Positions 3,752-34,074 of a stretch of DNA of 64,000 nucleotides are shown here, in pieces. The stretch is from contig NZ_CP049109.1 in assembly GCF_011057975.1 (NCBI RefSeq), positions 2,201,001 through 2,265,000 on the forward strand, written 5' to 3'. Made by a program: the position numbers and the translations under genes. Numbering within the stretch: position 1 is the first letter of the stretch; each line of letters starts with the position of its first letter. Under the pieces are notes generated by a model, which was not told the DNA's origin, made no database searches, and saw only the letters and a program-made list of their open reading frames with translations. This DNA comes from Sphingosinithalassobacter tenebrarum. GTDB lineage: Bacteria > Pseudomonadota > Alphaproteobacteria > Sphingomonadales > Sphingomonadaceae.

Positions 3752-4380
3752 ACGCCGAATTGTTCGAACGCGCATTTTCGCAATGCCCGCTCGTCGCGAT
3801 TCTGCGCGGCCTGACGCCCGGTGAAGCGCCGGCGGTGGGCGATGCGCTGGTCGATGCCGGCATTACCATCATCGAAGTTCCGCTCAATTCGCCCCATCCG
3901 CTGGAAAGCATCGGCCTGCTGGCCAGGCGCCTGGCGGGCAGGGCAGTGGTCGGCGCCGGGACGGTGCTGACCATCGAGCAGGTGCGGCAAGTCGCATCTG
4001 CGGGGGGACAGCTGATCGTGTCGCCGAACAGCGATCCCGAGGTGATCCGGGCCGGCGTGGCTGCCGGGATGGCTTGTGCACCCGGCTATTACACGGCGAC
4101 CGAGGCTTTTGCCGCGCTTGCCGCCGGTGCGCACGCGCTGAAACTGTTTCCCGCCGACAGTGCGGTACCCGCGATGTTGAAGGCGCAGCGGGCCGTGCTG
4201 CCGCGCGAGGTACCGGTGCTGGCAGTCGGCGGTATCACCCCCGACACGATGGCGGCATGGCGGACAGCGGGTGCCGATGGCTTCGGCCTTGGCTCCAACC
4301 TCTATCGTCCCGGAAAACCGGCCTCTGCGGTCGCCGCCGATGCGCGGCGTTTCCTCCAGTCCCTTTCGGAGCTTGCATGA
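3748..4380 (+). CDS. dgoA: 2-dehydro-3-deoxy-6-phosphogalactonate aldolase
   Basis: A 210-residue class I aldolase of the KDPG/KDPGal family, cleaving 2-keto-3-deoxy-6-phosphogalactonate to pyruvate and glyceraldehyde-3-phosphate. PLVAILRGLTP, the GAGTVLT loop and KLFPADS, whose lysine forms the Schiff base, are all present. I chose the ATG at 3748 because it makes a 4-nt overlap with the dgoK stop. An ATG at 3733 adds five residues and is less likely. The stop again overlaps the next gene by ATGA. Confidence 0.94.
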   Translation: MNAELFERAFSQCPLVAILRGLTPGEAPAVGDALVDAGITIIEVPLNSPHPLESIGLLARRLAGRAVVGAGTVLTIEQVRQVASAGGQLIVSPNSDPEVIRAGVAAGMACAPGYYTATEAFAALAAGAHALKLFPADSAVPAMLKAQRAVLPREVPVLAVGGITPDTMAAWRTAGADGFGLGSNLYRPGKPASAVAADARRFLQSLSELA

Positions 4381-5372
4381 CTTTCCAACGTCTCGTCCAA
4401 CATCGTGCCGACGACGGCACTCGCGGGGTCATCTGGGCGAACGGCGAGCAGGCCGTGTTTGTCGACCAGGTAGATACGACACGCGCACTGGCGCTCGCCG
4501 CGATTGGGGAAGGGCGCACACTTGCCGAAGAGGCGCAGAGGCGCGCCGGCAGCCGTGGTGTCGATCTGGCAGCCGAACTCGCGGCGGGGCGGCTGTTGCC
4601 CGCCATCGACCACGATGACCCGGCACGAATGATCCTTGCCGGCACCGGCCTGACGCACCTCGGTTCGGCCGAGGGGCGCGACAAGATGCACAAGGCGGCC
4701 GCGCAGGCCGAGCATCAGACCGATTCGATGCGCATGTTCCTTGAAGGTGTGGCGGGCGGGAAGCCTGCTCCCGGCGAGACGGGGCAGCAGCCGGAATGGT
4801 TCTACAAGGGCGACGGCAGCGGCCTGGTCGGCCCCGGCGCGCCGCTGCGCTCTCCCGCCTTCGCTCAGGACGGCAGCGAAGAGCCCGAGCTTGCCGGTAT
4901 CTACGTGATCGGTGAGGACGGCACGCCCTGGCGGCTTGGCGTCGCGCTTGCCAACGAATTCAGCGATCATGTGACCGAGCGGCACAATTATCTGTGGCTC
5001 GCTCATTCCAAGCTTCGCCCGGCGGCGCTCGGCGCGGAACTGCTGCTTGGCACGCCGCCCGCCGATATTCGCGGCACCAGCCGCATTCTGCGCGACGGCG
5101 CCACGCTCTGGGAAAAGCCGTTCCTGACCGGCGAAGCCAATATGTCGCACCATATCGCCAATCTCGAGGCGCACCATTTCAAATATGCCGGTTTCCGGCG
5201 GCCCGGAGACATTCATGTCCATTTCTTCGGGACGGCTACCTTGTCATTTGCTGATGGCGTGACGACGCAGCCGGGTGATGAATTCGAGATTTCGGCCGAG
5301 CCCTTCGTCTTGCCGCTGCGCAATCGGCTCGAAGTCGGGCCTGCGGATAACGTGACGGTGCGCGCGCTGTGA
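4377..5372 (+). CDS. AraD1/GguC-like fumarylacetoacetate hydrolase-family protein
   Basis: A 331-residue protein resembling the AraD1/GguC group, which belongs to the FAH superfamily and travels with arabinose/galactose catabolic genes. Visible FAH-like motifs are GTGLTHLGSAEGRDKMH and, in the C-terminal half, VHFFGTATLSFADG and a metal-site-like stretch around EFSDHVTERHNYLWL. The exact reaction of this group is not settled; a keto-deoxy sugar acid hydratase or hydrolase role is inferred from context. It overlaps dgoA and the dehydrogenase by 4 nt on each side. Its presence suggests the operon also handles L-arabinose. Confidence 0.8.
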   Translation: MTFQRLVQHRADDGTRGVIWANGEQAVFVDQVDTTRALALAAIGEGRTLAEEAQRRAGSRGVDLAAELAAGRLLPAIDHDDPARMILAGTGLTHLGSAEGRDKMHKAAAQAEHQTDSMRMFLEGVAGGKPAPGETGQQPEWFYKGDGSGLVGPGAPLRSPAFAQDGSEEPELAGIYVIGEDGTPWRLGVALANEFSDHVTERHNYLWLAHSKLRPAALGAELLLGTPPADIRGTSRILRDGATLWEKPFLTGEANMSHHIANLEAHHFKYAGFRRPGDIHVHFFGTATLSFADGVTTQPGDEFEISAEPFVLPLRNRLEVGPADNVTVRAL

Positions 5373-21158: not shown

Positions 21159-24100
21159 GTTTCGATCCACGCCCCCGTGTGGGGGCGACCCCATCAGCTT
21201 CACGCGCGACATGACGAAGGTGATGTTTCGATCCACGCCCCCGTGTGGGGGCGACATGCGAGCATTGCCGTTTTTGCGCACATAGTCCTGTTTCGATCCA
21301 CGCCCCCGTGTGGGGGCGACAACGCTCACGGTCGTCTTCACCGGCGTCTCGTCGTTTCGATCCACGCCCCCGTGTGGGGGCGACGACATCGCCGCCGCCG
21401 GACACAGGCGTCTGAATGTTTCGATCCACGCCCCCGTGTGGGGGCGACAATACGAACGGCGTTTTCACCACCACGGCCAGCGGGTTTCGATCCACGCCCC
21501 CGTGTGGGGGCGACCGCACGCTTGTGCATTCGTCTGTGATGACGAGCGCGTTTCGATCCACGCCCCCGTGTGGGGGCGACTCGATCATCGACAGTCACGT
21601 CGCCGCCAAATACCGTTTCGATCCACGCCCCCGTGTGGGGGCGACACCGCCGCGCCTATCGTCGCCACATGGCGGCTCTGGTTTCGATCCACGCCCCCGT
21701 GTGGGGGCGACCCTGCTTTATCAGTGCCTGCCCTGTCGTGCCTCCGGTTTCGATCCACGCCCCCGTGTGGGGGCGACCGCCTCGCCCATCTCGCCGAAGC
21801 GCGAGCCCTTGGCGTTTCGATCCACGCCCCCGTGTGGGGGCGACGTGTTCAATACCGGCTATGGCCGTTCGTGGCGCGTTTCGATCCACGCCCCCGTGTG
21901 GGGGCGACGGCAGCGGTCGCGAGCGCCGGCCTGCTTACCGGAGTTTCGATCCACGCCCCCGTGTGGGGGCGACCAGTCGCCGACAAGATCATCACCCCCG
22001 CCACGATGTTTCGATCCACGCCCCCGTGTGGGGGCGACCCACGCGGATGGATGAGCGATTGCAGCTTACCGGCGTTTCGATCCACGCCCCCGTGTGGGGG
22101 CGACCATGGCGACAACCGGGAGCGCAAGAAGGTTCGGGTGGTTTCGATCCACGCCCCCGTGTGGGGGCGACCGTTCGCCGACGAGGCCTTCTACGCGGGC
22201 GACAAGTTTCGATCCACGCCCCCGTGTGGGGGCGACCCGGTCAGGTCCTTGGTGGTGCTAATCAGCGCGGGTTTCGATCCACGCCCCCGTGTGGGGGCGA
22301 CCCCGCCAGAGCTTCGACGACTTCCGCAACCGCTTCATGTTTCGATCCACGCCCCCGTGTGGGGGCGACCGAGCGGCCTACATGATCAAGAGCCCGCCCG
22401 GCATGTTTCGATCCACGCCCCCGTGTGGGGGGCGACCGATCGGCTCTTGAACTATACGCAGCCGTAAAAAGCGGTTTCGATCCACGCCCCCGTGTGGGGG
22501 CGACCGTCTTCAGCGGCACCTGCGGACGGCCACAGTGTCCGTTTCGATCCACGCCCCCGTGTGGGGGCGACCGAGGCGCCGCTGATCGTGCCGGGCAGGG
22601 TGCGGTTGTTTCGATCCACGCCCCCGTGTGGGGGCGACCACTTCAAGAGCTTTCTGACGCGCGGCGATCACGAGTTTCGATCCACGCCCCCGTGTGGGGG
22701 CGACCGGCGGCGGCGGAGGCCGCGCTGCGTAAATTCGAGGTTTCGATCCACGCCCCCGTGTGGGGGCGACCGCGCGGCTGCGACGCGCGCCAATCCTTCG
22801 ATCCTGTTTCGATCCACGCCCCCGTGTGGGGGCGACCGATTGGCCGCGGCACCGATCGCCGGGCCGGGGTGTTTCGATCCACGCCCCCGTGTGGGGGCGA
22901 CCCAGCTGGTGCCAGGGCGACCGCTATATCAGCATGTTTCGATCCACGCCCCCGTGTGGGGGCGACCCACGCCCACGCAGATAGGCCGCGTTCTTCACGG
23001 TGTTTCGATCCACGCCCCCGTGTGGGGGCGACCTAGGTCGCGCTCAAAGGCCGCGCCGCTTCGCGCGTTTCGATCCACGCCCCCGTGTGGGGGCGACCGG
23101 CAGCACGCGGCGCTATCGGCAGGCAGGGGGCAAGTTTCGATCCACGCCCCCGTGTGGGGGCGACCGCCCGGCTGTATCGCGATACGCCGCCGACCGACGT
23201 TTCGATCCACGCCCCCGTGTGGGGGCGACCCGCGCGAGTTACGCGCGCGCGGCAATGGAACGCTGGTTTCGATCCACGCCCCCGTGTGGGGGCGACCTTT
23301 CCTCGACCGCTTGAATTTCGCGGAAGATGATGTTTCGATCCACGCCCCCGTGTGGGGGCGACCATAGGAGGCCGACCAAATGAGCGCATTTATACTTGTT
23401 TCGATCCACGCCCCCGTGTGGGGGCGACCATGCTGTCGCCAAGTTCTATTGGGGGCTCCGGGAAGTTTCGATCCACGCCCCCGTGTGGGGGCGACCACGA
23501 GACTTTTTCGGGGTGGACCGAAGGGGTGTTCGTTTCGATCCACGCCCCCGTGTGGGGGCGACCGCCTGTAATCCCGGACCCGTTCTTCTCAATCAGAGTT
23601 TCGATCCACGCCCCCGTGTGGGGGCGACCGCGCGCAGGGCGTCGAGGACATCGGGCGAGAGGCGGTTTCGATCCACGCCCCCGTGTGGGGGCGACCCGGC
23701 GGGCAGGCGCTGGCGAGCGTCATCAAGGCATGGTTTCGATCCACGCCCCCGTGTGGGGGCGACCGCGGTATCGCTGGATACTGTAGTCTGACTGCACTCG
23801 TTTCGATCCACGCCCCCGTGTGGGGGCGACCCACGCCTCTCCGCTTCCTGCACGAGACGATCGAGTTTCGATCCACGCCCCCGTGTGGGGGCGACCCGCC
23901 TGCCGCACCGCCGCCTCGCTGCCGTCCGTGATGTTTCGATCCACGCCCCCGTGTGGGGGCGACCAGGGCATCTTCAACTTCGAGGCGCTCGATCTGCCGG
24001 TTTCGATCCACGCCCCCGTGTGGGGGCGACCATCATCGTCCACCGGCGGCGTGACGCCAGCGAGGTTTCGATCCACGCCCCCGTGTGGGGGCGACCTCGC

Positions 24101-25733
24101 TGACCGCGTGAGCCGAAACGAACGGATCGAGTTTCGATCCACGCCCCCGTGTGGGGGCGACCGCGCCATTACCGGCGCGAAGGCGCCATTCGGCATCGTT
24201 TCGATCCACGCCCCCGTGTGGGGGCGACCCGAGCGTCTGCTTTGAGCCCCAGGCGAACTGCCAGTTTCGATCCACGCCCCCGTGTGGGGGCGACCACGGC
24301 AAACCCAGCTGGAGGACAGCCTGATAGAGTTTCGATCCACGCCCCCGTGTGGGGGCGACCGTTCATGGCGGTCGAGCGCCTAACCGGGCTGGGAGTTTCG
24401 ATCCACGCCCCCGTGTGGGGGCGACCCGCGGCGGCGAGGCGATGCTGGCCGTCGACGACGTTTCGATCCACGCCCCCGTGTGGGGGCGACCGCGGGAGCA
24501 AAAGCGCGCTCTTTTGCTGGCAGAGTTTCGATCCACGCCCCCGTGTGGGGGCGACCAGCCGGTGAGCGAGACGGGCAGCGCCGCGTTGGGTTTCGATCCA
24601 CGCCCCCGTGTGGGGGCGACCCACATAGACGAGGCCGTTATCGGCGCGCACCGCGTTTCGATCCACGCCCCCGTGTGGGGGCGACCTCCGCCGCCTTCAT
24701 GGGGTCGAGATCACCCGAGCGTTTCGATCCACGCCCCCGTGTGGGGGCGACCTCGCCGCGTTCGGTAACGCCGCCGTAAATGCGCTGTTTCGATCCACGC
24801 CCCCGTGTGGGGGCGACCGGCGGGGCCGTGGAACGCGGCCGAGTATCGCGCGTTTCGATCCACGCCCCCGTGTGGGGGCGACCATATGTCTACGAAAAGG
24901 AGTTCCGGCTCAAAACGTTTCGATCCACGCCCCCGTGTGGGGGCGACCCCTATCAGACATCGAGCTGGCCTGCCGTGGGGTGGTTTCGATCCACGCCCCC
25001 GTGTGGGGGCGACCCTCGTTTCCAATTCTGCCGATGTCTTCACTCGGGTTTCGATCCACGCCCCCGTGTGGGGGCGACCAGGGCGCCGAATACCTCGCGC
25101 TGCTCGCAAACCGTTTCGATCCACGCCCCCGTGTGGGGGCGACCCTGCCGATCTTCGATCCATCGGGCATCAATGCCCGTTTCGATCCACGCCCCCGTGT
25201 GGGGGCGACCGTTTTTGGAAGCCCGACAGGGATACCCATGAGTGTTTCGATCCACGCCCCCGTGTGGGGGCGACCCTCCTCTATCTATCGTCCTGTCTTG
25301 GGGTGGTGGGGTTTCGATCCACGCCCCCGTGTGGGGGCGACCAGGGCGCGGCGGCGACGGCAAATCGACCGCAATGTTTCGATCCACGCCCCCGTGTGGG
25401 GGCGACCTACCGGGGCAGCTCAGATCATCGAGAGCAACTGGTTTCGATCCACGCCCCCGTGTGGGGGCGACCGCCGTCGATCAGCATGTCGCCCGAAGTG
25501 GTGACGTTTCGATCCACGCCCCCGTGTGGGGGCGACCACGGCCGTCGGAGCGCGTGATGGCCGGATTGATGTTTCGATCCACGCCCCCGTGTGGGGGCGA
25601 CCCGGGTTCGCTTTCCTCGCTCGCATCCTCAAGCAGTTTCGATCCACGCCCCCGTGTGGGGGCGACCGCCACCCCGATGATGACCGACCGACCGCCATTG
25701 AAGTTTCGATCCACGCCCCCGTGTGGGGGCGAC
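21159..25733 (-). CRISPR. Type I-C CRISPR array, 70 repeats and 69 spacers
   Basis: By hand I count 70 copies of a 31-nt repeat. On the plus strand it begins GTTTCGATCCACGC and ends GGGGGCGAC, with a CGCCCCC/GGGGGCG stem. Spacers are 33-37 nt. The cas genes, the leader promoter and the repeat end GTGGATCGAAAC (the 5' handle of I-C crRNAs) show that transcription runs on the minus strand, from 25733 toward 21159. The newest spacers should therefore be near 25700 and the oldest near exoD. All repeats look identical except the one at 22405. I saw no duplicate spacers. Confidence 0.98.
22405..22436 (-). repeat. Variant CRISPR repeat with one extra G
   Basis: This repeat, the 20th counted from the plus-strand left end, reads GTGTGGGGGGCGAC where all others have five Gs, making it 32 nt long. 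It lies in the older third of the array. A one-base slip in the stem would lengthen one arm of the crRNA hairpin. It is the only repeat difference I noticed. Confidence 0.85.
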
Positions 25734-25924: not shown

Positions 25925-26215
25925 TCAGAAGAGGAGCGGGCCATCCAGATCGAGGGCAGGTTTCGCGCCGACATGCTCGATCCGGCGCTTTCCATCCGCA
26001 CCCAGACGATAAAAACGCAGGCTGTCGCGTTCAACGTCTATCTCTGACAGGAGACGGGCTCGCAGCATGGCCCACATCGCCGGATCGACTTCGCATTCGA
26101 AGACCGAATTCTGCACGCGCTGGCCATGGTCGAGGCAGGCGCGGGCCACGCGGCGCAGGCGGCGGCGACCGGCGGCATCCTCAGTCGAGACGTCATAGGT
26201 GACAAGCATCAGCAT
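25925..26215 (-). CDS. cas2: CRISPR-associated endoribonuclease/integration factor Cas2
   Basis: A 96-residue Cas2, the dimeric core that bridges two Cas1 dimers during spacer integration. The first beta strand MLMLVTYDVSTED holds the conserved Asp, and RVQNSVFECEVD follows as usual. It lies 3 nt downstream of cas1 and is the last cas gene before the leader. Length and position fit type I-C. Confidence 0.95.
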   Translation of the reverse strand: MLMLVTYDVSTEDAAGRRRLRRVARACLDHGQRVQNSVFECEVDPAMWAMLRARLLSEIDVERDSLRFYRLGADGKRRIEHVGAKPALDLDGPLLF

Positions 26216-26218
26216 CCG

Positions 26219-27259
26219 CTATTTCCATATGAAGCCAGGATAGCCGTCGATATCCCCACGCAGATGCCGGGCGAGCAGCAGCGCCTGAACGTGCGGCACA
26301 AGGCCGAGCGGCATGGTTTCGCCCAGAAAGGGGTGGCGCAATTCGTCCTTTTTGCGTTCCTGCCACGCGGTTAGCACGCGCTTGCGCGGTTCCTCCTTTA
26401 ACGAGACGGCACCGCCTTCGTCGACTTTGAAATCGCCCGCCTCTATTTGCCGCCGATTGACAAGGCTTAGCGCCAGGCGATCGGCCAGCACCGGGCGCAG
26501 TTCCTCCATCAGGTCAAGCGCAAGGCTGGCGCGGCCCGGACGATCGGCATGGAGGAAGCCGATCTGAGGATCGAGACCCACGCCCTCCGCCGCAGACCGG
26601 CAATCATGTCCAAGCATAGCATAAAGAAAGGAGAGAAGCGCGTTCATCCGATCGAGCGGGGGACGGCGTGAACGCGTGGTGAAGGCGAATTCGGTCGCGG
26701 GCACGCGGCGGAGAAAATCGAAAACGGCGAAATATTGCTGCGCACCCTCGCCCTCGGCACCGCGCAGCTTGTCCACATCGTCCAGCATCACCGCATGGCA
26801 GCCGATACGATCGATGCGGCGCTCGGCCATGTTTATCGCGGTTCGCGCGGATTCGTCCATGCCGCTGCCATGGTCGCGCAGCGCCCGCCGCAGCACGGTG
26901 CGCTGATTGGCTAGCTTGGCCGTTACCATTCCGCGCACAATCGCGGCGGAGCGCACCGGATCGTCCGCAATCCGATGCTGGGTGCGGCGCAGCAGGACAT
27001 TGCCGCTGCGCGGTCCTTCGACCCGGGCGAGGAAGCGGCCAGTCGGCGTGAGGAAAGACATCGCGATCCCAGTTTCGGCGCAGGCGGCCATCAGGGCCGG
27101 GCTTGCCCCGGCGCGGGCGAAACACACGATGCCGCCAATCATATGGAGCGGCGCGCGTCCGCGTTCCTCGCCGTCCACCTCCACCACGACATTCTGGCCG
27201 TCCTTACGCAGCCAACCTCCTTCGCTGGTCACATAGATGGTGTTGAGGTGGCGGCGCAT
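26219..27259 (-). CDS. cas1: CRISPR integrase Cas1 (type I-C)
   Basis: A 346-residue integrase that inserts prespacers next to the leader. The N-terminal beta domain begins MRRHLNTIYVTSEGGWLRKDGQ. The helical domain holds the metal ligands: the Glu in RGAEGEGAQQYFAVF, the His in GFLHADRPGRASLALDL and the Asp after it. I chose the ATG at 27259 because it shares one base with the cas4 TGA. A longer frame to 27328 would overlap cas4 and lacks homology. Confidence 0.96.
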   Translation of the reverse strand: MRRHLNTIYVTSEGGWLRKDGQNVVVEVDGEERGRAPLHMIGGIVCFARAGASPALMAACAETGIAMSFLTPTGRFLARVEGPRSGNVLLRRTQHRIADDPVRSAAIVRGMVTAKLANQRTVLRRALRDHGSGMDESARTAINMAERRIDRIGCHAVMLDDVDKLRGAEGEGAQQYFAVFDFLRRVPATEFAFTTRSRRPPLDRMNALLSFLYAMLGHDCRSAAEGVGLDPQIGFLHADRPGRASLALDLMEELRPVLADRLALSLVNRRQIEAGDFKVDEGGAVSLKEEPRKRVLTAWQERKKDELRHPFLGETMPLGLVPHVQALLLARHLRGDIDGYPGFIWK

Positions 27260-27903
27260 CAGGCCCCGATCTGGCGTTCGAGCCAGCGACGGACGCTGGG
27301 CGGTTGCTGAAACGTTGCAGGGCGGCACAGATCGGCCAGCGAACAGCGCGTACAGCCTTTGAAGGGGACGGGCGGCGGGGTGCGGCGCGCAGCGAACATG
27401 GCGCGCGTTTCTTGCACGATGCGCAGCGTCAGCGCGCGCAAGTCGTCGTCAAAGGAAACGGCCCTTCGTCGCCGCACCTCGCCGTAAAACAGCGCACCTT
27501 CGGGAACGGCGTGGCCGAACATCGCTTCGAGGCAGAGGCCCTGCGCGCAAAGCTGTACCTCGTCTGCGCGGTGCGCTTTGGGCTTGCCGCGCTTATATTC
27601 GACCGGGAAGGGACGCGCCGCCGCACCGCGCCCGTGAAACTCCACCACATCGGCGACGCCGATCAGGCCCAGCTCGGGCGCGCGGATCGGCAGCGATCGC
27701 ACGAGGCGCACATCGCGTCTTCGATCGCCACCGCCCTTGTCCACTCTGTCGTGCAGAATGCGGCCTTCGGCGGTGGCACCGTCCTCCGCCCATTGCCGCT
27801 CGACATGGATTAGCGCGCATTGGCGCGGGCAGAACAGATAATGCTGGAGCGCGGATACGGGAATAAGGACATCGTCGTACCTATCGTCTGTGGCAGCGCT
27901 CAC
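27259..27903 (-). CDS. cas4: CRISPR-associated exonuclease Cas4
   Basis: A 214-residue RecB-like nuclease that trims prespacers and selects the PAM. SALQHYLFCPRQCALIH has the first Cys, PVEYKRGKPKAHRADEVQLCAQGLCLE gives the nuclease core (E, K, Q motif), and GCTRCSLADLC supplies three more Cys for the Fe-S cluster. The start is GTG at 27903, one nucleotide after the cas7 stop; the longer frame to 28056 only shadows cas7. Confidence 0.94.
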   Translation of the reverse strand: MSAATDDRYDDVLIPVSALQHYLFCPRQCALIHVERQWAEDGATAEGRILHDRVDKGGGDRRRDVRLVRSLPIRAPELGLIGVADVVEFHGRGAAARPFPVEYKRGKPKAHRADEVQLCAQGLCLEAMFGHAVPEGALFYGEVRRRRAVSFDDDLRALTLRIVQETRAMFAARRTPPPVPFKGCTRCSLADLCRPATFQQPPSVRRWLERQIGA

Positions 27904-27904
27904 C

Positions 27905-28870
27905 TCAGCACGGTTCCAGTATCTCGATCCCGTCGGGCAGACCGTCGCGCTCAATCCGCACGGCATAATCGCTCCAGCTTCGCGCGGCGGGCCAGTTGTC
28001 GGTGCTGTTGTGATAGGCATCGCTGCCGATCTCATGGGCAATCCCCTGATACACACGGTCGACCTTCACCCGATCAAACAGCGCCTGTGCCTGAGCATTG
28101 CCGAGCGCGGAAGCGTGACGGAAGACGATCAGCTTACGGCTCGCCATCTGTCCGCGCGCGGCGGAGCGATCGTGCTCGAACATGTTGCAAAGCGCGTCCC
28201 AGAGGAGGTCGAGATCGGCTTCGGAAAAACCCGTGCCCTTCGTGTCGTGCGAAGCGAGCGGCGCGGAAACGAAGCCGTGCACGCGATAGGCACCATAGGG
28301 TACGATATGCTTGCGGCCCATGGTGCGACCGCCCTTGGCCTCGGCATCCGCCTCCGTCGTTGCCGCCATGCGAGTGATCGAGATTTCGAGCGGCAGGATG
28401 CGTTCGAGCGAACGGGAGAAGGCGATCTGTACCGGGCCGCGGACCTGTCCCGCATTGACGCCTGTCGTCATCACCGCGCCGAATGTGCGAATGTCCCAGA
28501 AATTCGCGCACATCCACCGCGTCAACTCGCGCGATTTCTGCTGGTCCTTGGGCAGCTTCTTATACTCTTCGCTTTTGTCGACCGGCGGCATCACTGCTTC
28601 CCAGGCGCGCTTGTGCTGGTTGTTGAGCGTGGCGCCCTCGCTCATGTAGATTTCGTGGCCTTGCGCCAGAATGTCCCCGACTTCGGCCTTCAGCGCGACG
28701 TAATTGCGGATCTTGCGCTTCAACGCGACATCGGAAACCAGACCTAGATTGGTTTCGGGATCGATCCTCGGCAGATTGCCGGCGTCTGGGTCGCCGTTGG
28801 GGTTTCCGTCCTGCACGTCGAAGAACAGCACGAATTCGTGGCGGTGGGTCACGGCTGGGCTGTCGCTCAT
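27905..28870 (-). CDS. cas7: Type I-C Cascade backbone protein Cas7 (Csd2)
   Basis: A 321-residue Csd2-type Cas7 that polymerises along the crRNA spacer in the I-C Cascade. HRHEFVLFFDVQDGNPNGDPDAGNLPR near the start is the family hallmark. It starts with ATG sharing a base with the cas8c TAA, so its synthesis is coupled to that of Cas8c/Cas11c. The length is typical. Confidence 0.96.
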   Translation of the reverse strand: MSDSPAVTHRHEFVLFFDVQDGNPNGDPDAGNLPRIDPETNLGLVSDVALKRKIRNYVALKAEVGDILAQGHEIYMSEGATLNNQHKRAWEAVMPPVDKSEEYKKLPKDQQKSRELTRWMCANFWDIRTFGAVMTTGVNAGQVRGPVQIAFSRSLERILPLEISITRMAATTEADAEAKGGRTMGRKHIVPYGAYRVHGFVSAPLASHDTKGTGFSEADLDLLWDALCNMFEHDRSAARGQMASRKLIVFRHASALGNAQAQALFDRVKVDRVYQGIAHEIGSDAYHNSTDNWPAARSWSDYAVRIERDGLPDGIEILEPC

Positions 28871-29310
28871 TATTCACTGTCCCCTTCATTGTCGGTGGCG
28901 TTCGCCTCGGCCTCGGCGAGACTGATCTCGTCCCCCTTGTCGCTTTTCAGCTTGGCGCTTCGCTGGTGGTAATAGCCGATGGCGAATTCGGCCTGATCCT
29001 CCAGCGGCAGTGCGCGCGGCAGGGTGTGGGGAAGGCCGGGTTCGATCGTATCCATGATCGATTCCAGCTCGCGTTCGATCAGGAATGCCCATCCGGGGCT
29101 GGTTTTTCGGGCCTTGGCAAGGTGATTCTGCCCGTTCGAGATCACCAGCGGGAAGATGCTGGCAGGCGTTGCACTGGCACCGCCGAAAAATTTGTCCCGC
29201 ATCGTGGCGTTGACGCCGCGCCCCAGCGCCGCGATCTGCGCCAGTTCGTACACCGCGAACAGGCGGCCGAGCAGATAGCCCGGATTTGCATGCGTTCGAT
29301 CGAGCGCCAT
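28870..29310 (-). CDS. cas11c: Cas11c small subunit from internal start in cas8c
   Basis: Inside cas8c, the ATG at 29310 is preceded at ideal spacing by GGGAGGTGCCG. It opens 146 in-frame residues beginning MALDRTHANPGYLLGRLF. Known I-C systems make the Cascade small subunit by internal initiation at this conserved point, just before the NPGYLLGRLFA block. The strong ribosome site in the middle of a coding region is the evidence here. Cas11c forms the belly of the complex and stabilises the R-loop. Confidence 0.85.
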   Translation of the reverse strand: MALDRTHANPGYLLGRLFAVYELAQIAALGRGVNATMRDKFFGGASATPASIFPLVISNGQNHLAKARKTSPGWAFLIERELESIMDTIEPGLPHTLPRALPLEDQAEFAIGYYHQRSAKLKSDKGDEISLAEAEANATDNEGDSE

Positions 29311-30696
29311 CGGCACCTCCCTTTCCCTGAAACCCAGTCGATATTCGCGGTGCAGCACGCCGCGGCAGGCCGCTGCGTGCCAGCCGAAGGACGGATCGTC
29401 GCCCGCGCGCAGCCGGATGAGGATCGCCGACAGCCAGCTGCGCGGATAGGGGCGACCGGTGAGTACGGAGCGCATCACCTCACCGGCCAGTTGATTGGGG
29501 ATATTCTCGAACTTGCCCTGTAGCGCGGTGGTGCGCGCGAGCAGCAGCGAGACCGACGGAGCCTTCCACCCCGAAGGCAGGGGCTTGATGGTAAGGTCGC
29601 GATGATGATCGGCAAGGCGTCGCGCAAAGCGCTCGAAATCGCCTTCCTCCCAGAAGCGTACCGAAAGCCGCGCGGCATTGGGCGAAAGGCCGAGAACGTG
29701 GAATTTCGTGCCCTTCGCTATCGCCGGCCGAACATCCGAGATCGGACGGCCCGCCGCGACCGCCTCCAGCTCCACGCGCAGCTTCTCCGCCTCCTCGGCA
29801 TCGGTGATCCCCTCGATGGGACCGGCAAACCAGGCTTCCGCCGCCGCCGCCGCTTCCGCGCTGTCTTCGGTCTCCGCCTCGCCAGCATCGGCCCAGAAGA
29901 CGGTGGTGGCGTCGCCAATCGGCTGGCTGACGCGGTTCACGCTGTCCCGCGCCAGCATCGCGTTCAGCGCGCCGCCATAGCGCGCCGCCGCTTCTTGGGA
30001 GGTGGGGGCGTTGGCGCCCTGGATCTGTCCGTAGGAGGTGAAGGCGTCGAGGTTGAAGGAGACGAGCGCCGCGCCAGAGCTTTGCGCATCGCGCACGCCT
30101 TTGATCGCCGGATGCAGCCGTTCGAGCGTTCCCTGACGACCGGTGACGAGGCACATCACCGTGTCCGATGTCGCGCCATCGGCCGCGAAGTGGTCGACCA
30201 GCCGAACCGCTTCGTCGCTTTCGTGGATATAGCCCGTCGTGCCGTCCAGCCGGAACATGATGTTGGCGTCCAGCATCTCATCGGTGAAGGGCGAGTCGTC
30301 GTCAAAGCGTTCGGGGCGCCAGTTTTCGAGGAAAGCGAGCAGCGCCTTGAGCCCCGCATCCGCAACCCCCGCCAGCCTCTCGCGATGAAGCGTGACGAAC
30401 GCCTCATGCTCCTGCATCACGCGTTTGCCTGCGCCCGCGGTACGGCCAAGCGTGTAGGACGTCTTGTCCCACAGGAAATTGGGCGCGATGCCCGATGTGC
30501 GCTTCGGTCCGGCGGGCACGTTGAACTCGACCCGACGGGGCTTCCTGCCGCTATTGTCATGCAGATCGTTTACCGCGACCACCGATCCGTCGGCGCCAAG
30601 CACTATGCACCATCCGAAGCCCGCTTTCGTCCAGCCGGATGCTGCGGCACCCGCCATCCGGTCGTAATAGCGGTCGAGCGCCTGAAGTATCGTCAC
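28870..30696 (-). CDS. cas8c: Type I-C Cascade large subunit Cas8c (Csd1)
   Basis: A 608-residue Csd1. The N-terminal MTILQALDRYYDRM and the middle block VLGLSPNAARLSVRFWEEGDF are standard for the family, which recognises the PAM (TTC in studied I-C systems) and recruits Cas3. The start is GTG overlapping the cas5 stop (GTGA). The C-terminal quarter also encodes Cas11c from an internal start. Confidence 0.96.
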   Translation of the reverse strand: MTILQALDRYYDRMAGAAASGWTKAGFGWCIVLGADGSVVAVNDLHDNSGRKPRRVEFNVPAGPKRTSGIAPNFLWDKTSYTLGRTAGAGKRVMQEHEAFVTLHRERLAGVADAGLKALLAFLENWRPERFDDDSPFTDEMLDANIMFRLDGTTGYIHESDEAVRLVDHFAADGATSDTVMCLVTGRQGTLERLHPAIKGVRDAQSSGAALVSFNLDAFTSYGQIQGANAPTSQEAAARYGGALNAMLARDSVNRVSQPIGDATTVFWADAGEAETEDSAEAAAAAEAWFAGPIEGITDAEEAEKLRVELEAVAAGRPISDVRPAIAKGTKFHVLGLSPNAARLSVRFWEEGDFERFARRLADHHRDLTIKPLPSGWKAPSVSLLLARTTALQGKFENIPNQLAGEVMRSVLTGRPYPRSWLSAILIRLRAGDDPSFGWHAAACRGVLHREYRLGFREREVPMALDRTHANPGYLLGRLFAVYELAQIAALGRGVNATMRDKFFGGASATPASIFPLVISNGQNHLAKARKTSPGWAFLIERELESIMDTIEPGLPHTLPRALPLEDQAEFAIGYYHQRSAKLKSDKGDEISLAEAEANATDNEGDSE

Positions 30697-31370
30697 GACA
30701 CCAGGTCCGCGCTGTTCCAGGCGGGCACCTCGATCACGCCATCTTCCATGCGCGCGTGGAAGAAGCGCGACGCGCTGCCATTTGCGAAATCGATATCATG
30801 GAGCATCCAGCCAAGGTCGCGCTCGCGCTCGGTAAAGGACGCATCGGGCGAGGGCAGCGGATCGCCTTCGGCAACCAATGCGAATTCGGCGGGAAACTCG
30901 CGGGTGCCGAGGCAGGGGCGGTGAAAGCACTGGCCGGAAGCGGCGCGGCGGTTGAACATCGAGATATGCTTGGCCGCCGTATCGCCCGGCCCGGCTTTCT
31001 CGGTCATCTCGAAATGGGCTTCGATCACATAGGCGACATCGACCAGCAGCATCGCGGCGCGTTGCTGCCGATCTTCGTCCACCGCGATCCCGAGCCCGCT
31101 CGTATCCTTGCGCTTCATCGCTCCAGAGGCGAGGCTGGCACTTGCCTTCGCCCCGACCTCATTGCGGCGGAACGACTGGAAGCGGATGGGCTTGAGCACA
31201 TGGATGCGATCGACGTGCCAGCGGATCGCGGGTTTCCAGTGAATCGCTTCCAGAATGCCGCGTGCGGCAGATGGGGTGATGACGTCATAGCTGACGCGTT
31301 CGACCTTCATCTCCGGCCGGGTAAAGCAGGCGCGCTCCCCCCAGATATGCAGTCGTACGCCCATAGTCAT
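30693..31370 (-). CDS. cas5: Cas5d, crRNA-processing Cascade subunit
   Basis: A 225-residue Cas5d. In type I-C it replaces Cas6, cutting the pre-crRNA below the repeat hairpin and capping the 5' handle. GVRLHIWGERACFTRPEMKVERVSYDVITPSAARGILEAIHWKP is the characteristic beginning. I chose the ATG at 31370, preceded by GGGGAAGAG; an ATG at 31388 is also in frame. A run of eight G residues directly precedes the ribosome site. It is the first gene of the cas5-cas8c-cas7-cas4-cas1-cas2 operon. Confidence 0.95.
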   Translation of the reverse strand: MTMGVRLHIWGERACFTRPEMKVERVSYDVITPSAARGILEAIHWKPAIRWHVDRIHVLKPIRFQSFRRNEVGAKASASLASGAMKRKDTSGLGIAVDEDRQQRAAMLLVDVAYVIEAHFEMTEKAGPGDTAAKHISMFNRRAASGQCFHRPCLGTREFPAEFALVAEGDPLPSPDASFTERERDLGWMLHDIDFANGSASRFFHARMEDGVIEVPAWNSADLVS

Positions 31371-31463
31371 CTCTTCCCCCCCCAGCATAGCCTAGTCAAA
31401 AGACGTCAATTGCCAAAAAGAAATTTCTCCGTTTCGGTCACTCTTCACAGGCTTCCATAAATT

Positions 31464-31489
31464 GGCCCCCGAGCAGAAGCTCGAGGGCC
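31464..31489. terminator. Strong stem-loop downstream of the degenerate CRISPR repeat
   Basis: GGCCCCCGAGC and GCTCGAGGGCC (plus strand) pair over 11 bp with one G-T, around the loop AGAA. On the plus strand it is followed by TTTT, the form of an intrinsic terminator, but no plus-strand gene precedes it. On the minus strand it begins about 31 nt after the degenerate repeat, where the second repeat of a mini-CRISPR would be, so it may instead define the 3' end of the small RNA. Confidence 0.6.
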
Positions 31490-31550
31490 TTTTAACATGA
31501 AGCGACGCTTCACTTCCTAGGTTTCGATCCACGCGCTCGTATCGGGCGAC
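31490..31550 (-). ncRNA. Candidate CreA/CreR-like crRNA: degenerate repeat plus spacer-like sequence
   Basis: A lone repeat-like element (31521-31550) has the first 14 plus-strand bases of the array repeat intact (GTTTCGATCCACGC) and ends GGGCGAC. Four substitutions and one deletion separate it from the consensus. It can still fold (CGCCCG-ATA-CGAGCG, one mismatch) and keeps the full 5' handle GTGGATCGAAAC. The following minus-strand sequence from 31520 starts CTAGGAAGTGA. Cas5d could process it into a guide RNA. The matching target is at 31702-31726. It lies between cas3 and cas5, where such regulatory guides have been found in other type I systems. Confidence 0.75.
31521..31550 (-). repeat. 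Solitary degenerate type I-C repeat
   Basis: This is a 30-nt sequence about 84% identical to the array repeat, 5.8 kb away from the array and outside any gene. The half carrying the crRNA handle is perfectly conserved, while the changes fall in the stem and loop. That bias suggests selection on processing and Cascade loading rather than random decay. Confidence 0.9.
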
Positions 31551-31580
31551 TATGTTGGTTCTTCGGGTACCGCAGCGGTT

Positions 31581-31640
31581 TCACCGGAAAGCGTAAAGCG
31601 TAAAGCCCCCGCTGCCGACTGTTTCACTGTATCTTACCAC
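31581..31640 (-). CDS. Candidate mini-ORF between promoter and degenerate repeat (CreT-like?)
   Basis: A 19-codon frame starts with GTG at 31640, directly after GGAGG at 5-nt spacing (31650-31646), and ends TGA at 31581-31583, 30 nt before the degenerate repeat. The third codon is AGA, rare in this GC-rich genome. CreT toxins described in other type I loci are very small genes, some acting through rare Arg codons, repressed by Cascade guided by CreA. Here only the arrangement and the ribosome site support it; the peptide has no recognisable domain. Confidence 0.35.
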   Translation of the reverse strand: MVRYSETVGSGGFTLYAFR

Positions 31641-31688
31641 GTTTGCCTCCACCTGCCTCGATGGTGAGCGTTACGGTAACGATACGGA

Positions 31689-31726
31689 TGGTCAATTGGC
31701 GGAAGCGCCCAATCACTTCCTAGGAA
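31689..31726 (-). promoter_or_regulatory. Cascade target site overlapping a candidate promoter
   Basis: On the minus strand TTC (31726-31724) is followed by CTAGGAAGTGA (31723-31713), identical to the first 11 bases after the degenerate repeat. Positions 15 and 17-22 (CGCTTC) also match, giving 18 of 22 in register. TTC is the usual I-C PAM. A 35-nt protospacer would cover TTGACC (31695-31690), a good -35, with TAACGC 16 nt on as a weaker -10. The core ACTTCCTAGGAAGT (31715-31728) is also a perfect palindrome, so a protein operator is an alternative. Confidence 0.7.
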
Positions 31727-31749
31727 GTAAGATAAATGCTCCTTGGAAT

Positions 31750-34074
31750 TCAAACAATGAAATTGCTATCCGCCGACCGCCACGTCGGATCGTCCAGTCG
31801 AAGCCCGGTGTCCCGGTCGTACAGCGAACTGCTCTCCAGTACCACGAAGCGGTCGCCGTACAGGTCGGGCCGCACCGCCTGCACCGCGCCGGTCCCCAGC
31901 ATCGCGGCGCGCACATTTGCGGGCACCGGCACCGTATATTGCTGCAGCTTGCGGGTGACGCCGGCGGGCGGGAGGGGAGCGTGCTCCAGGATGTTGATCG
32001 CCGTGCGGGCTTCGTCGTCCCAGGGAATGAGGACGGGTTCCATCGTTTCTTCAATCAGGCGAAAAGCGGCATCGATGGCGGCGAAGGGAAAGTCGAAGCT
32101 GCGTCCAGCCGCCGCGATCGCGGGCAGGGTCGCGAACCGCTCGCCGCGAAGCGTCGCGGCATCGAGTTGGTCGGCGCCTTTGCGGAAATAGAGCTCCTTG
32201 AAATATTCGCGAACCCCAACAAGGCCGAGCGGGTCCAGCCCCTGGCGCCGGACCCAACCGGTGGCTTCGGCAAAAAGTCGCAACGCGCGGGGCGTCGGGC
32301 GGTCGGCATGGTCGAAAACCACGGTACGGCCAAGCCGTCCGTTCAGCCTTCCTTCGCGATTGCAGCGGCCCGCTGATTGCGCAATCGAATCCAGTCCTGC
32401 CATCGCGCGCCAAACTTCGGGGAAGTCCACATCCACGCCTGCCTCGATCAGGCTGGTGCTAACCAGTCGGACCGGACGGTCGTGGCGCAGGTCGTTGCGA
32501 AGCTTCGCCAGCACCGCGCGCCGATGCTTCGCACACATCAGCGTGGTCAGGTGGCAGGCGCCGTCCGTCCCGGCGATAGCATCATATAACGCCTTCGCAT
32601 GGGCGCGGCTGTTGACGATGCACAGCATTTGCGGCGCCTGCGCAAAGCCGGCCACAATATCTTCGTCCGTCACCTGAGCGCCCGCAACGGGCCACTCGAT
32701 CTCCACACGTTTCAACACGCCGTAGAGCGCCTTCGGATCGGGGGCGAGTTCGCGCTCATCGTCGATGTCGAGCCCCGCCACACCCTTTGGCAATGCGCCG
32801 TCCTGGCGGCGTAGCGCCGGTTGGGTGGCGGTGCACAGGACCGGGCTGGCACCGTAATTGTTCGCCAGTTCCTCGATCGCGGCAAGGCAGGGGTGGAGGA
32901 GCCGGACGGGCAGGCTCTGCGCCTCGTCCAGTACTATGACGCTGTTCGCCAGGTTGTGCAGCTTGCGCGCCTTGCCGCGCTTTGCCGCGAACAGGCTTTC
33001 AAAAAACTGCACTGCGGTGGTGACAATCACCGGCGCATCCCAATTTTCAGAATCGCGCCGTAATTTGGCGAGGCCTGCGCGGCCTTCGTGTTCGACATCG
33101 TCCCCATCGGCGGGCGCGCTTCCGTCCCAGTCGAATGCACTATGGTGTTCGAGCACCGCATCCTCGCCCAACACGTCGCGGAATATCGCCGCGGTCTGTT
33201 CGATGATCGAGGTATAGGGGATGACATAGACGATTCGTCGCAGGCCGTGCAGTGCGGCATGTTCGATCGCGAAGCGCAGCGATGTCAGCGTCTTTCCGCC
33301 GCCGGTCGGCACGGTCAGTGTGAACAGGCCGGGGGGCAGCGCCGCCTTTCCAACAGCGTGGTCGAGAACCGTGGCGCGAATGCGGTTCACTGCGGTATCG
33401 TCAGAGCGCTTTGCTTCGGTCTTTTCGCGGACCAGTGCGAGATGATCGGGCGTCAGCACCCCGCCGCGTGGCGGCGGGTCGCGGCCTTCGACCCTGGCAT
33501 AGAATCGTTCGGTGGCAATCGAATCGGCATCGACCAGGCAGGAGAACAGCATCCGCGTAAGAAACGCACGTTCGAAAAGCGGGCCATGGGCGTTCGGCTC
33601 GAACTGCCGTTTCGGCACCATGGCCGCCATATCAGGCAGGCCCTCAACATGGTTCTCCCAGCCTGAATAGTCCGGTAGTTCGCCCGCTTCGCTGAGGCGC
33701 TGTTCCAGCGTCGAACGGCCATAGTCATTATGCCCGGCCCCGTTGGCGAGCCCGGCATGGTGCCCCGCCACAGCAAAGGCGATCATCTTGCTCAGCGGAT
33801 GAGGAAATAGCCGTATCGCCTCTATCGCGCCCGCTGTGCTGTGGTTCGGGCTTGGCCCCTTGCCAGCGATATAGTCCTGATACTCGGTGGAGGCCTTTCC
33901 GATATCGTGGAGAAGGCCGCTCGCGACCGCCGGTCCGGAAGCGCCGAAGATACCGGCAAATTCTCCGGCCAGCGCACCGACCGCCGACAGATGATCCGCG
34001 AGCGGCTCCCAATTGACACAATCTGGAGCGCCTTCAATCGAATGGGCGAAGAAGTGGTTTTTCTGGTCGCTGAT
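31750..34074 (-). CDS. cas3: CRISPR helicase-nuclease Cas3 (type I-C), non-canonical start
   Basis: About 775 residues. The HD nuclease has FFAHSIEG, GLLHDIGKAS, NHSTAGA and AGHHAGLANG. The SF2 helicase has TVPTGGGKTLTS (Walker A), VIVLDEAQSLP, CTATQPAL, and STSLIEAGVDVDF with QSAGRCNREGR. All motifs are intact. The first ATG (33786) lies inside the HD domain, after the HD pair. The homologous frame continues upstream to TAA near 34118 without ATG, GTG or TTG. The ATC at 34074, giving ISDQKNHFFAHS, sits where family members start; a CTG at 34080 is the alternative. Start placement is therefore uncertain. Confidence 0.9.
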   Translation of the reverse strand: MSDQKNHFFAHSIEGAPDCVNWEPLADHLSAVGALAGEFAGIFGASGPAVASGLLHDIGKASTEYQDYIAGKGPSPNHSTAGAIEAIRLFPHPLSKMIAFAVAGHHAGLANGAGHNDYGRSTLEQRLSEAGELPDYSGWENHVEGLPDMAAMVPKRQFEPNAHGPLFERAFLTRMLFSCLVDADSIATERFYARVEGRDPPPRGGVLTPDHLALVREKTEAKRSDDTAVNRIRATVLDHAVGKAALPPGLFTLTVPTGGGKTLTSLRFAIEHAALHGLRRIVYVIPYTSIIEQTAAIFRDVLGEDAVLEHHSAFDWDGSAPADGDDVEHEGRAGLAKLRRDSENWDAPVIVTTAVQFFESLFAAKRGKARKLHNLANSVIVLDEAQSLPVRLLHPCLAAIEELANNYGASPVLCTATQPALRRQDGALPKGVAGLDIDDERELAPDPKALYGVLKRVEIEWPVAGAQVTDEDIVAGFAQAPQMLCIVNSRAHAKALYDAIAGTDGACHLTTLMCAKHRRAVLAKLRNDLRHDRPVRLVSTSLIEAGVDVDFPEVWRAMAGLDSIAQSAGRCNREGRLNGRLGRTVVFDHADRPTPRALRLFAEATGWVRRQGLDPLGLVGVREYFKELYFRKGADQLDAATLRGERFATLPAIAAAGRSFDFPFAAIDAAFRLIEETMEPVLIPWDDEARTAINILEHAPLPPAGVTRKLQQYTVPVPANVRAAMLGTGAVQAVRPDLYGDRFVVLESSSLYDRDTGLRLDDPTWRSADSNFIV

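Follow-up and report, generated by a model that had tools for sequence, protein, structure and literature searches.

What does a single degenerate repeat do in the gap between cas3 and cas5d of a type I-C CRISPR-Cas locus? The question is raised by a stretch of 64,000 nucleotides of Sphingosinithalassobacter tenebrarum DNA (hereafter the window; contig NZ_CP049109.1, positions 2,201,001 to 2,265,000), for which the original prediction was that the repeat gives rise to a guide RNA of the CreA/CreR type by which the I-C Cascade is led to a promoter within that gap. All positions given below are those of the window and, unless stated otherwise, of features on its minus strand.

That strand carries a type I-C locus in the order cas3, gap, cas5d, cas8c, cas7, cas4, cas1, cas2 and array. 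The gene cas5d (30693..31370; TIGR01876; start probably at 31370) encodes the enzyme that processes the crRNA in this subtype, a job that is ascribed to Cas5 in a figure legend of PMC10651486. The genes cas8c, cas7, cas4, cas1 and cas2 (25925..30696) were recognized by NCBIfam models above cut-off, and the array (21159..25714) contains 70 exact repeat handles. The 3' part of cas3, as listed from its first ATG (31750..33786), matched the NCBIfam models TIGR01587 and TIGR01596, both below the curated cut-offs. The late first ATG would fit a broken gene, an option that was ruled out because nearly all of Cas3 is covered by one frame (34050-31762, in a tblastn search with the Cas3 of locus L021 as query). 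The open frame continues well upstream of the first ATG, GTG or TTG codon (33786-34050) and the Cas3 match extends to around 34050. A search for Cas6 (PF10040) in the host genome yielded nothing, which is a weak negative considering that the same search matched only 2 of 14 control genomes. A plasmid as the source was considered and set aside, as no similarity was found at E <= 0.01; nor was a similar phage record found at that threshold.

The handle, GTGGATCGAAAC, occurs in 71 exact copies in the window, 70 of them in the array and one alone in the cas3-cas5 gap. The latter copy (31532-31521) closes a degenerate I-C repeat (psiR1, 31521..31550), precisely as had been claimed for a lone degenerate repeat with a complete handle. 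The accompanying claim of a foldable stem fared poorly: the stem is imperfect, with a C-A mismatch and an energy of -3.8 kcal/mol when the handle is kept free, and 114 of 200 shuffled sequences fold equally well. Behind the repeat lies the guide or psi-spacer (31490..31520), 31 nt up to an 11-bp hairpin (31464..31489; -25.2 kcal/mol, z -6.4) that takes the place of a second repeat and that is absent from the original prediction. The hairpin was also considered as an intrinsic terminator, which was ruled out given the lack of a T run behind it on the minus strand and a negative terminator scan. The predicted guide RNA of the window (11 + 31 + 26 nt) would have around the length of a normal crRNA of the window's array.

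The guide was said to match a site 200 nt away at positions 1-11, 15 and 17-22, and this is indeed the case: the first 22 nt of the protospacer (31702..31723, read from 31723 to 31702) match the guide at 18 of the 22 positions, and the TTC PAM is found directly next to it (31724..31726, read from 31726 to 31724). The full protospacer of 34 nt (31723-31690) includes the TTGACC at 31697-31692, also in line with the prediction. When the guide was shuffled 200,000 times and compared to any of the 25 TTC sites in the gap region, the 11/11 seed was reached by a single shuffle and the 18/22 match by none. The exact pattern of PAM and positions 1-11, with position 6 left free, occurs once in the 3.86-Mb genome. 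The target coincides in part with a palindrome, ACTTCCTAGGAAGT (31715..31728), which is perfect over 14 bases and creates on the plus strand a further TTC site (PAM 31717-31719), back-to-back with the first, that matches guide positions 1-9 and 11. We have high confidence that the guide and the target in the window are real and, judging from their sequences, RNA-guided binding at this target is very likely.

Related loci provide a further view of the same arrangement. Loci with Cas5 were taken from a genome collection (the best 80 of a longer list), from samples of the genus, order, class and phylum, and from viral contigs (3 loci); of the 131 loci obtained, 125 had cas3 upstream, and these represented 119 distinct gaps. 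The gap was short (<190 bp) in 73 of the 119, and none of these 73 contained a handle on either strand. Within the 46 long gaps, 33 hold a lone handle (at least 11/12 matches), oriented along the cas genes in 29 cases and reversed in four, and 13 are without one. Stretches of 350 bp taken as controls, one within cas3 and one within cas5, contained no handle in any of the 119 loci. An ectopic degenerate repeat that keeps its handle beside the cas genes is found in the window and in 32 of the 118 other loci. Two of the long gaps that lack a handle (L086 and L090) contain frames that, by eye, recall a GIY-YIG nuclease.

To score the targets, the 34 nt after each handle were compared with the TTC-flanked sites of the same gap over seed positions 1-5 and 7-11. 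A target in their own gap with a score of at least 9/10 was found for 26 of the 33 modules, versus 5 of 1,056 swapped pairs and 8 of 6,600 shuffled guides, and when one module per related group was kept the numbers were 20/26 versus 1/650. The 26 high-scoring modules carry 24 distinct seeds. With the PAM left free, the best sites scoring at least 9 have TTC in 26 of 27 cases and TTT in the other one. Seven modules scored lower (L112, 6; L020, 7; L026, 8; L039, 5; L040, 7; L051, 6; L093, 8). In L039 a site flanked by TTT was seen by eye.

The mismatch at position 12 of the window target had been ascribed to the fact that every sixth position remains unpaired in type I R-loops, and the relatives agree with this explanation. 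Among the 28 loci with a score of at least 8, pairing occurs at position 6 in seven and at position 12 in six, which is chance level; positions 13-15 pair in 19-21 of these loci and positions 16-17 in 15-17, and beyond position 17 pairing is near background, except at position 21 (16/28). Such a rhythm is the pattern that would be expected of a type I R-loop. For an archaeal CreA of type I-B, mutations have been reported to show that pairing is dispensable at positions 6 and 12 and required at the remaining ten of the first twelve positions (PMC8501985). The hairpin behind the guide is likewise common, with z < -2 in 26 of the 33 modules, GC-rich and mostly without a T run, and in L073 and L071 it is followed by remnants of a handle.

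An alignment of related I-C gaps had been put forward as a check, with co-varying guides and targets on the one hand and handles that decay beside a preserved palindrome on the other as the possible outcomes. The former was observed: the target sequence changes with the guide while the TTC and the 6-nt rhythm are kept, and the handle is conserved, which is the opposite of decay. Within the window's genus, this Cas5 was present at E <= 1e-60 in six of the 295 genomes, and four further members matched it only weakly. Of the six, only the window's own genome has the module, and in the remaining five the gap is short and contains none, leaving the module of the window without a close relative for comparison. 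The parts, their match, the PAM, the uniqueness of the pattern and a logic that is conserved in relatives are evident at this level of analysis, and we regard the comparative evidence as decisive for a Cre-type reading of the predicted module.

The target would have to lie at a promoter for such a module to act as a repressor, and a probable -35 box, TTGACC (31692..31697), is present, identified from the sequence and from the TTGAC pattern of the group; the accompanying -10 box at around 31674-31669 is weak. More specifically, 14 of the 24 forward modules with good targets, the window included, have TTGAC at the target edge that faces cas5, versus a mean of 1.3 and a maximum of 7 modules for shuffled segments (2,000 rounds). 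The span searched ran from -20 to +35 of that edge and the starts were found from 9 nt before to 12 nt after it, a range that is fitted by the TTGACC of the window at -6. A consensus scan detected no promoter in the window's gap. An E. coli-type matrix preferred a different pair of boxes in the window's gap (-8 to 21 behind the cas3 stop), and over the 24 modules its boxes overlap the protospacer in 7 only, lying mostly just beside it. A possible separate promoter for cas5, TTGACG-N12-GCTATGCT (31384..31409), was recognized by reading the sequence, and presumably resembles an alphaproteobacterial promoter type. Taken together, the matched pairs with unrelated seeds, the TTC, the pairing rhythm and the -35 box strongly support the prediction of a CreA/CreR-type guide that leads the I-C Cascade to a promoter in its own gap.

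Considering that relatives show the same arrangement with different but matching guides and targets, Cascade would very probably not cut DNA here but switch off a nearby gene, perhaps a toxic one. In the scheme that we propose, a promoter just behind cas3 (-35 at 31697-31692) would give rise to a short RNA that spans the small product region, the degenerate I-C repeat, the 31-nt guide and the hairpin. Cas5d would then cut the repeat, and the resulting crRNA-like guide of around 68 nt (handle, guide and hairpin) would enter Cascade, after which the complex would occupy the TTC-flanked target, and with it the -35 box, and block the promoter. With pairing in the seed and little beyond position 22, Cascade would stay bound and cutting by Cas3 would not be licensed; loss or inhibition of Cascade would open the promoter. 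Transcription, processing, repression without cutting and a toxin-like product (not only the guide or the cas genes) are what we infer from this arrangement. Our preferred reading, to which we assign a probability of around 0.6, is that the gap in the window is a CreTA-type module in which the Cascade-bound guide would repress the promoter of a small toxin-like peptide or RNA.

The candidate for such a product in the window, a weak one, is a GTG frame of 19 codons (31581..31640) that starts 5 nt after a GGAGG; a comparable frame was encountered in 96 of 5,000 shuffles. A second, overlapping frame of 25 codons (31550..31627) starts from a GTG without a ribosome site and its stop shares the last base with the repeat; the stops of the frames in L034 and L093 likewise adjoin their repeats. 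No relative of either the 19-codon or the 25-codon frame was found among the 1,357 frames of the gaps in the survey. We rate a toxin as more likely than not, if unproven, as the product in the window.

Ribosome-site-led frames of at least 20 codons are present in 11 of the 29 forward modules versus 2.6 expected from mononucleotide shuffles, a count outside which the 19-codon frame of the window falls. The frames of L066, L118/L068, L076 and L081 encode basic peptides with a hydrophobic stretch, of which three further relatives of 54 residues, 76-94% identical and unnamed, were found in the protein database. L076 and L081 differ by 7 silent changes in 35 silent sites versus 7 changes in 103 others. 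In Alphaproteobacteria, short peptides ending in '...EWEPP' could be grouped in a profile that held firmly in leave-one-out for L034, L041 and L093 only; when left out, those of L045, L051 and L039 did not stand out from the best unrelated frame (11.2/11.1, 6.3/6.2 and 6.2/5.8 bits, respectively), and the peptide of L036 was missed. This profile gave one strong match per genome in 5 of the 7 module genomes searched. The peptide of the 25-codon frame of the window, whose end looks similar by eye, was tried as a member of this group and rejected, as it has no relative and the profile matched neither the frames of the window's gap nor anything elsewhere in the genome. None of the ten module peptides searched matched a Pfam or NCBIfam family at cut-off. 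By eye, the peptides of L071 and L073 are alike, and so are those of L006 and L121, which contain a DFW motif.

Other modules point to other kinds of output. In L020, L040, L077, L085 and L091, which belong to the Alpha- and Betaproteobacteria, the start codon of a mini-ORF was seen by eye to lie within a small hairpin after a strong ribosome site, and as far as can be judged by eye these five share an RNA-toxin design. In L066, L068 and L041 the small frame runs on and its stop lies in or behind the handle of the repeat, so that product and guide share bases. Locus L021 (Gluconacetobacter diazotrophicus PA1 5, 3965-5000) has a lone reversed I-C handle in a cas3-cas5 gap of 1,049 bp. The guide of this handle has a 10/10 TTC-flanked target at around L021:4867, 108 bp upstream of vapB-vapC (4759-4125, minus strand), and a CRISPR-regulated VapBC pair is possible there.

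The rival that survives best has the same guide and target and no toxin: as in CreR, the promoter would drive the guide and, by read-through, cas5 to cas2, so that Cascade limits its own supply and a load of crRNA or anti-CRISPRs would relieve the repression. Some of the relatives seem to be organized this way. The matrix-called -10 box is separated from the repeat by 22-25 nt (L108 and L109) or 32-39 nt (L060 and L075), which leaves hardly any room for a toxin and makes these modules, with their good targets, resemble CreR; L110, in which the box was called elsewhere, shows the same tight layout by eye, and L108, L109 and L110 are from one genus. We consider these five as candidates for CreR-type autorepression in I-C, and both kinds of output between which the original prediction had not chosen, toxin and cas operon, seem to occur in this subtype. 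CreR has moreover been reported for types I-B, I-E and V-A (PMC13131331) and is called widespread in type I and V-A (PMC12737573), and a convincing toxin is absent from the window. In the window, however, the presumed -10 box lies 118 nt from the repeat, with a ribosome-site-led frame in between, and the second promoter-like stretch lies directly before cas5, which, as far as the sequence can be read, indicates that the repressed promoter may differ from the one of cas5. A toxin-like output as in CreTA is most likely in the window, and autorepression of guide and cas genes, while possible, is less likely and on balance doubtful.

Two further explanations do without a functional guide and are both highly improbable. 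A repressor protein could bind the palindrome at 31715-31728, in which case the guide would match this site by coincidence or through a relic duplication. The palindrome is without a mismatch in its 14 bases, but an operator would explain neither the matching at unrelated sequences in 26 of the 33 loci nor the TTC and the chance-level pairing at positions 6 and 12, and the former, seen across the relatives, is the reason why we set this option so low. The arrangement could equally be a functionless stray repeat, or a relic mini-array with a self-matching spacer, in keeping with the poor stem of the repeat and the confinement of the module to a single genome of the genus sample; against this stand the exact handle, the exact seed, the strong hairpin and the recurrence of the same arrangement in 33 of the 119 loci. 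A phage-derived solitary repeat (Racr) was set aside, given that the repeat is located within the cas operon, has a matched target and shows no phage similarity at E <= 0.01.

The CreTA-type module that we favor for the window would have counterparts in several other subtypes. The CreTA systems of Haloarcula hispanica and Halobacterium hubeiense (I-B) resemble it in having degenerate repeat(s), partial complementarity to a promoter at positions 1-5 and 7-11, and a guide and toxin that are adjacent and located in or beside the cas operon (PMC8501985). According to the same source, the CreA of H. hubeiense has a TTC-flanked target and represses a joint creTA promoter. In contrast to I-C, where Cas5d is used, the I-B guides are cut by Cas6, and the I-B toxins are tRNA-sequestering RNAs, whereas several I-C modules hold small peptide frames instead. 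The I-F CreTA of Acinetobacter likewise occupies a gap of around 400 bp behind cas3 (cas3-csy1) that is present or absent among relatives, with a PAM-flanked target and a mini-ORF (PMC10097628). It differs in subtype and PAM and in the divergent direction of guide and toxin, which would run in the same direction here, and the seed rule fails for it. The I-E CreTA of Citrobacter rodentium lies in the cas3-casA gap with repeat- and spacer-like parts and a target at the promoter, and its toxin frame of 96 bp is translated (PMC12055562); unlike here, the guide is encoded on the strand opposite the toxin, and subtype and PAM are different.

CreR, a crRNA-like RNA that partly matches a promoter of the cas operon (PMC12737573, PMC13131331), resembles the predicted guide of the window, and differs from the toxin reading in that there is no toxin and the target is the cas promoter itself. 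The Racr elements, solitary repeats of phages that include RacrIC1, share the solitary I-C repeat outside an array (PMC10651486), yet these are phage-encoded CRISPR inhibitors and the window repeat sits in a chromosomal cas gap with a matched target.

The toxin of CrePA is a phage-derived protein of the KilA-N type; in the gap of the window, ribosome-site-led frames ahead of the repeat reach 23 codons at most. According to PMC10097628, all of the earlier creTA genes are found around cas6, a location that would exclude I-C. The same paper also describes CreTA as associated with diverse Class 1 systems. The wording of PMC12737573, which speaks of type I and V-A in general, leaves room for a CreR in I-C. 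We found no I-C CreTA or CreR in the literature searched, in agreement with the original prediction, which knew of no described I-C case; the original papers on CreTA (Science 2021), CreR (2023) and CrePA (2024) lie outside that search, and an earlier mention is possible.

The guide of the window would thus work like CreA/CreR, in a subtype without Cas6 and with outputs that appear exchangeable across relatives. The wider proposal, to which we give even odds, is that Cre modules are general in the Cas6-less I-C systems (33 of the 119 sampled), with Cascade serving as a private repressor of an exchangeable output; as part of this proposal, the output may be a membrane-type or other short peptide, an RNA-like mini-ORF, a VapBC pair, or the guide and cas operon itself. 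If so, Cas5d would cut repeats of which the stem has almost gone. The survey yields 26 matched guide-target pairs and new small toxin candidates that are directly testable, together with a rule by which such modules can be detected on sequence grounds, i.e. a long cas3-cas5 gap, a handle and a match next to TTC in which positions 6 and 12 are free. If true, addiction or self-control modules are also found in a CRISPR subtype that lacks Cas6, and this would help to explain why costly systems are retained and how the host answers anti-CRISPRs.
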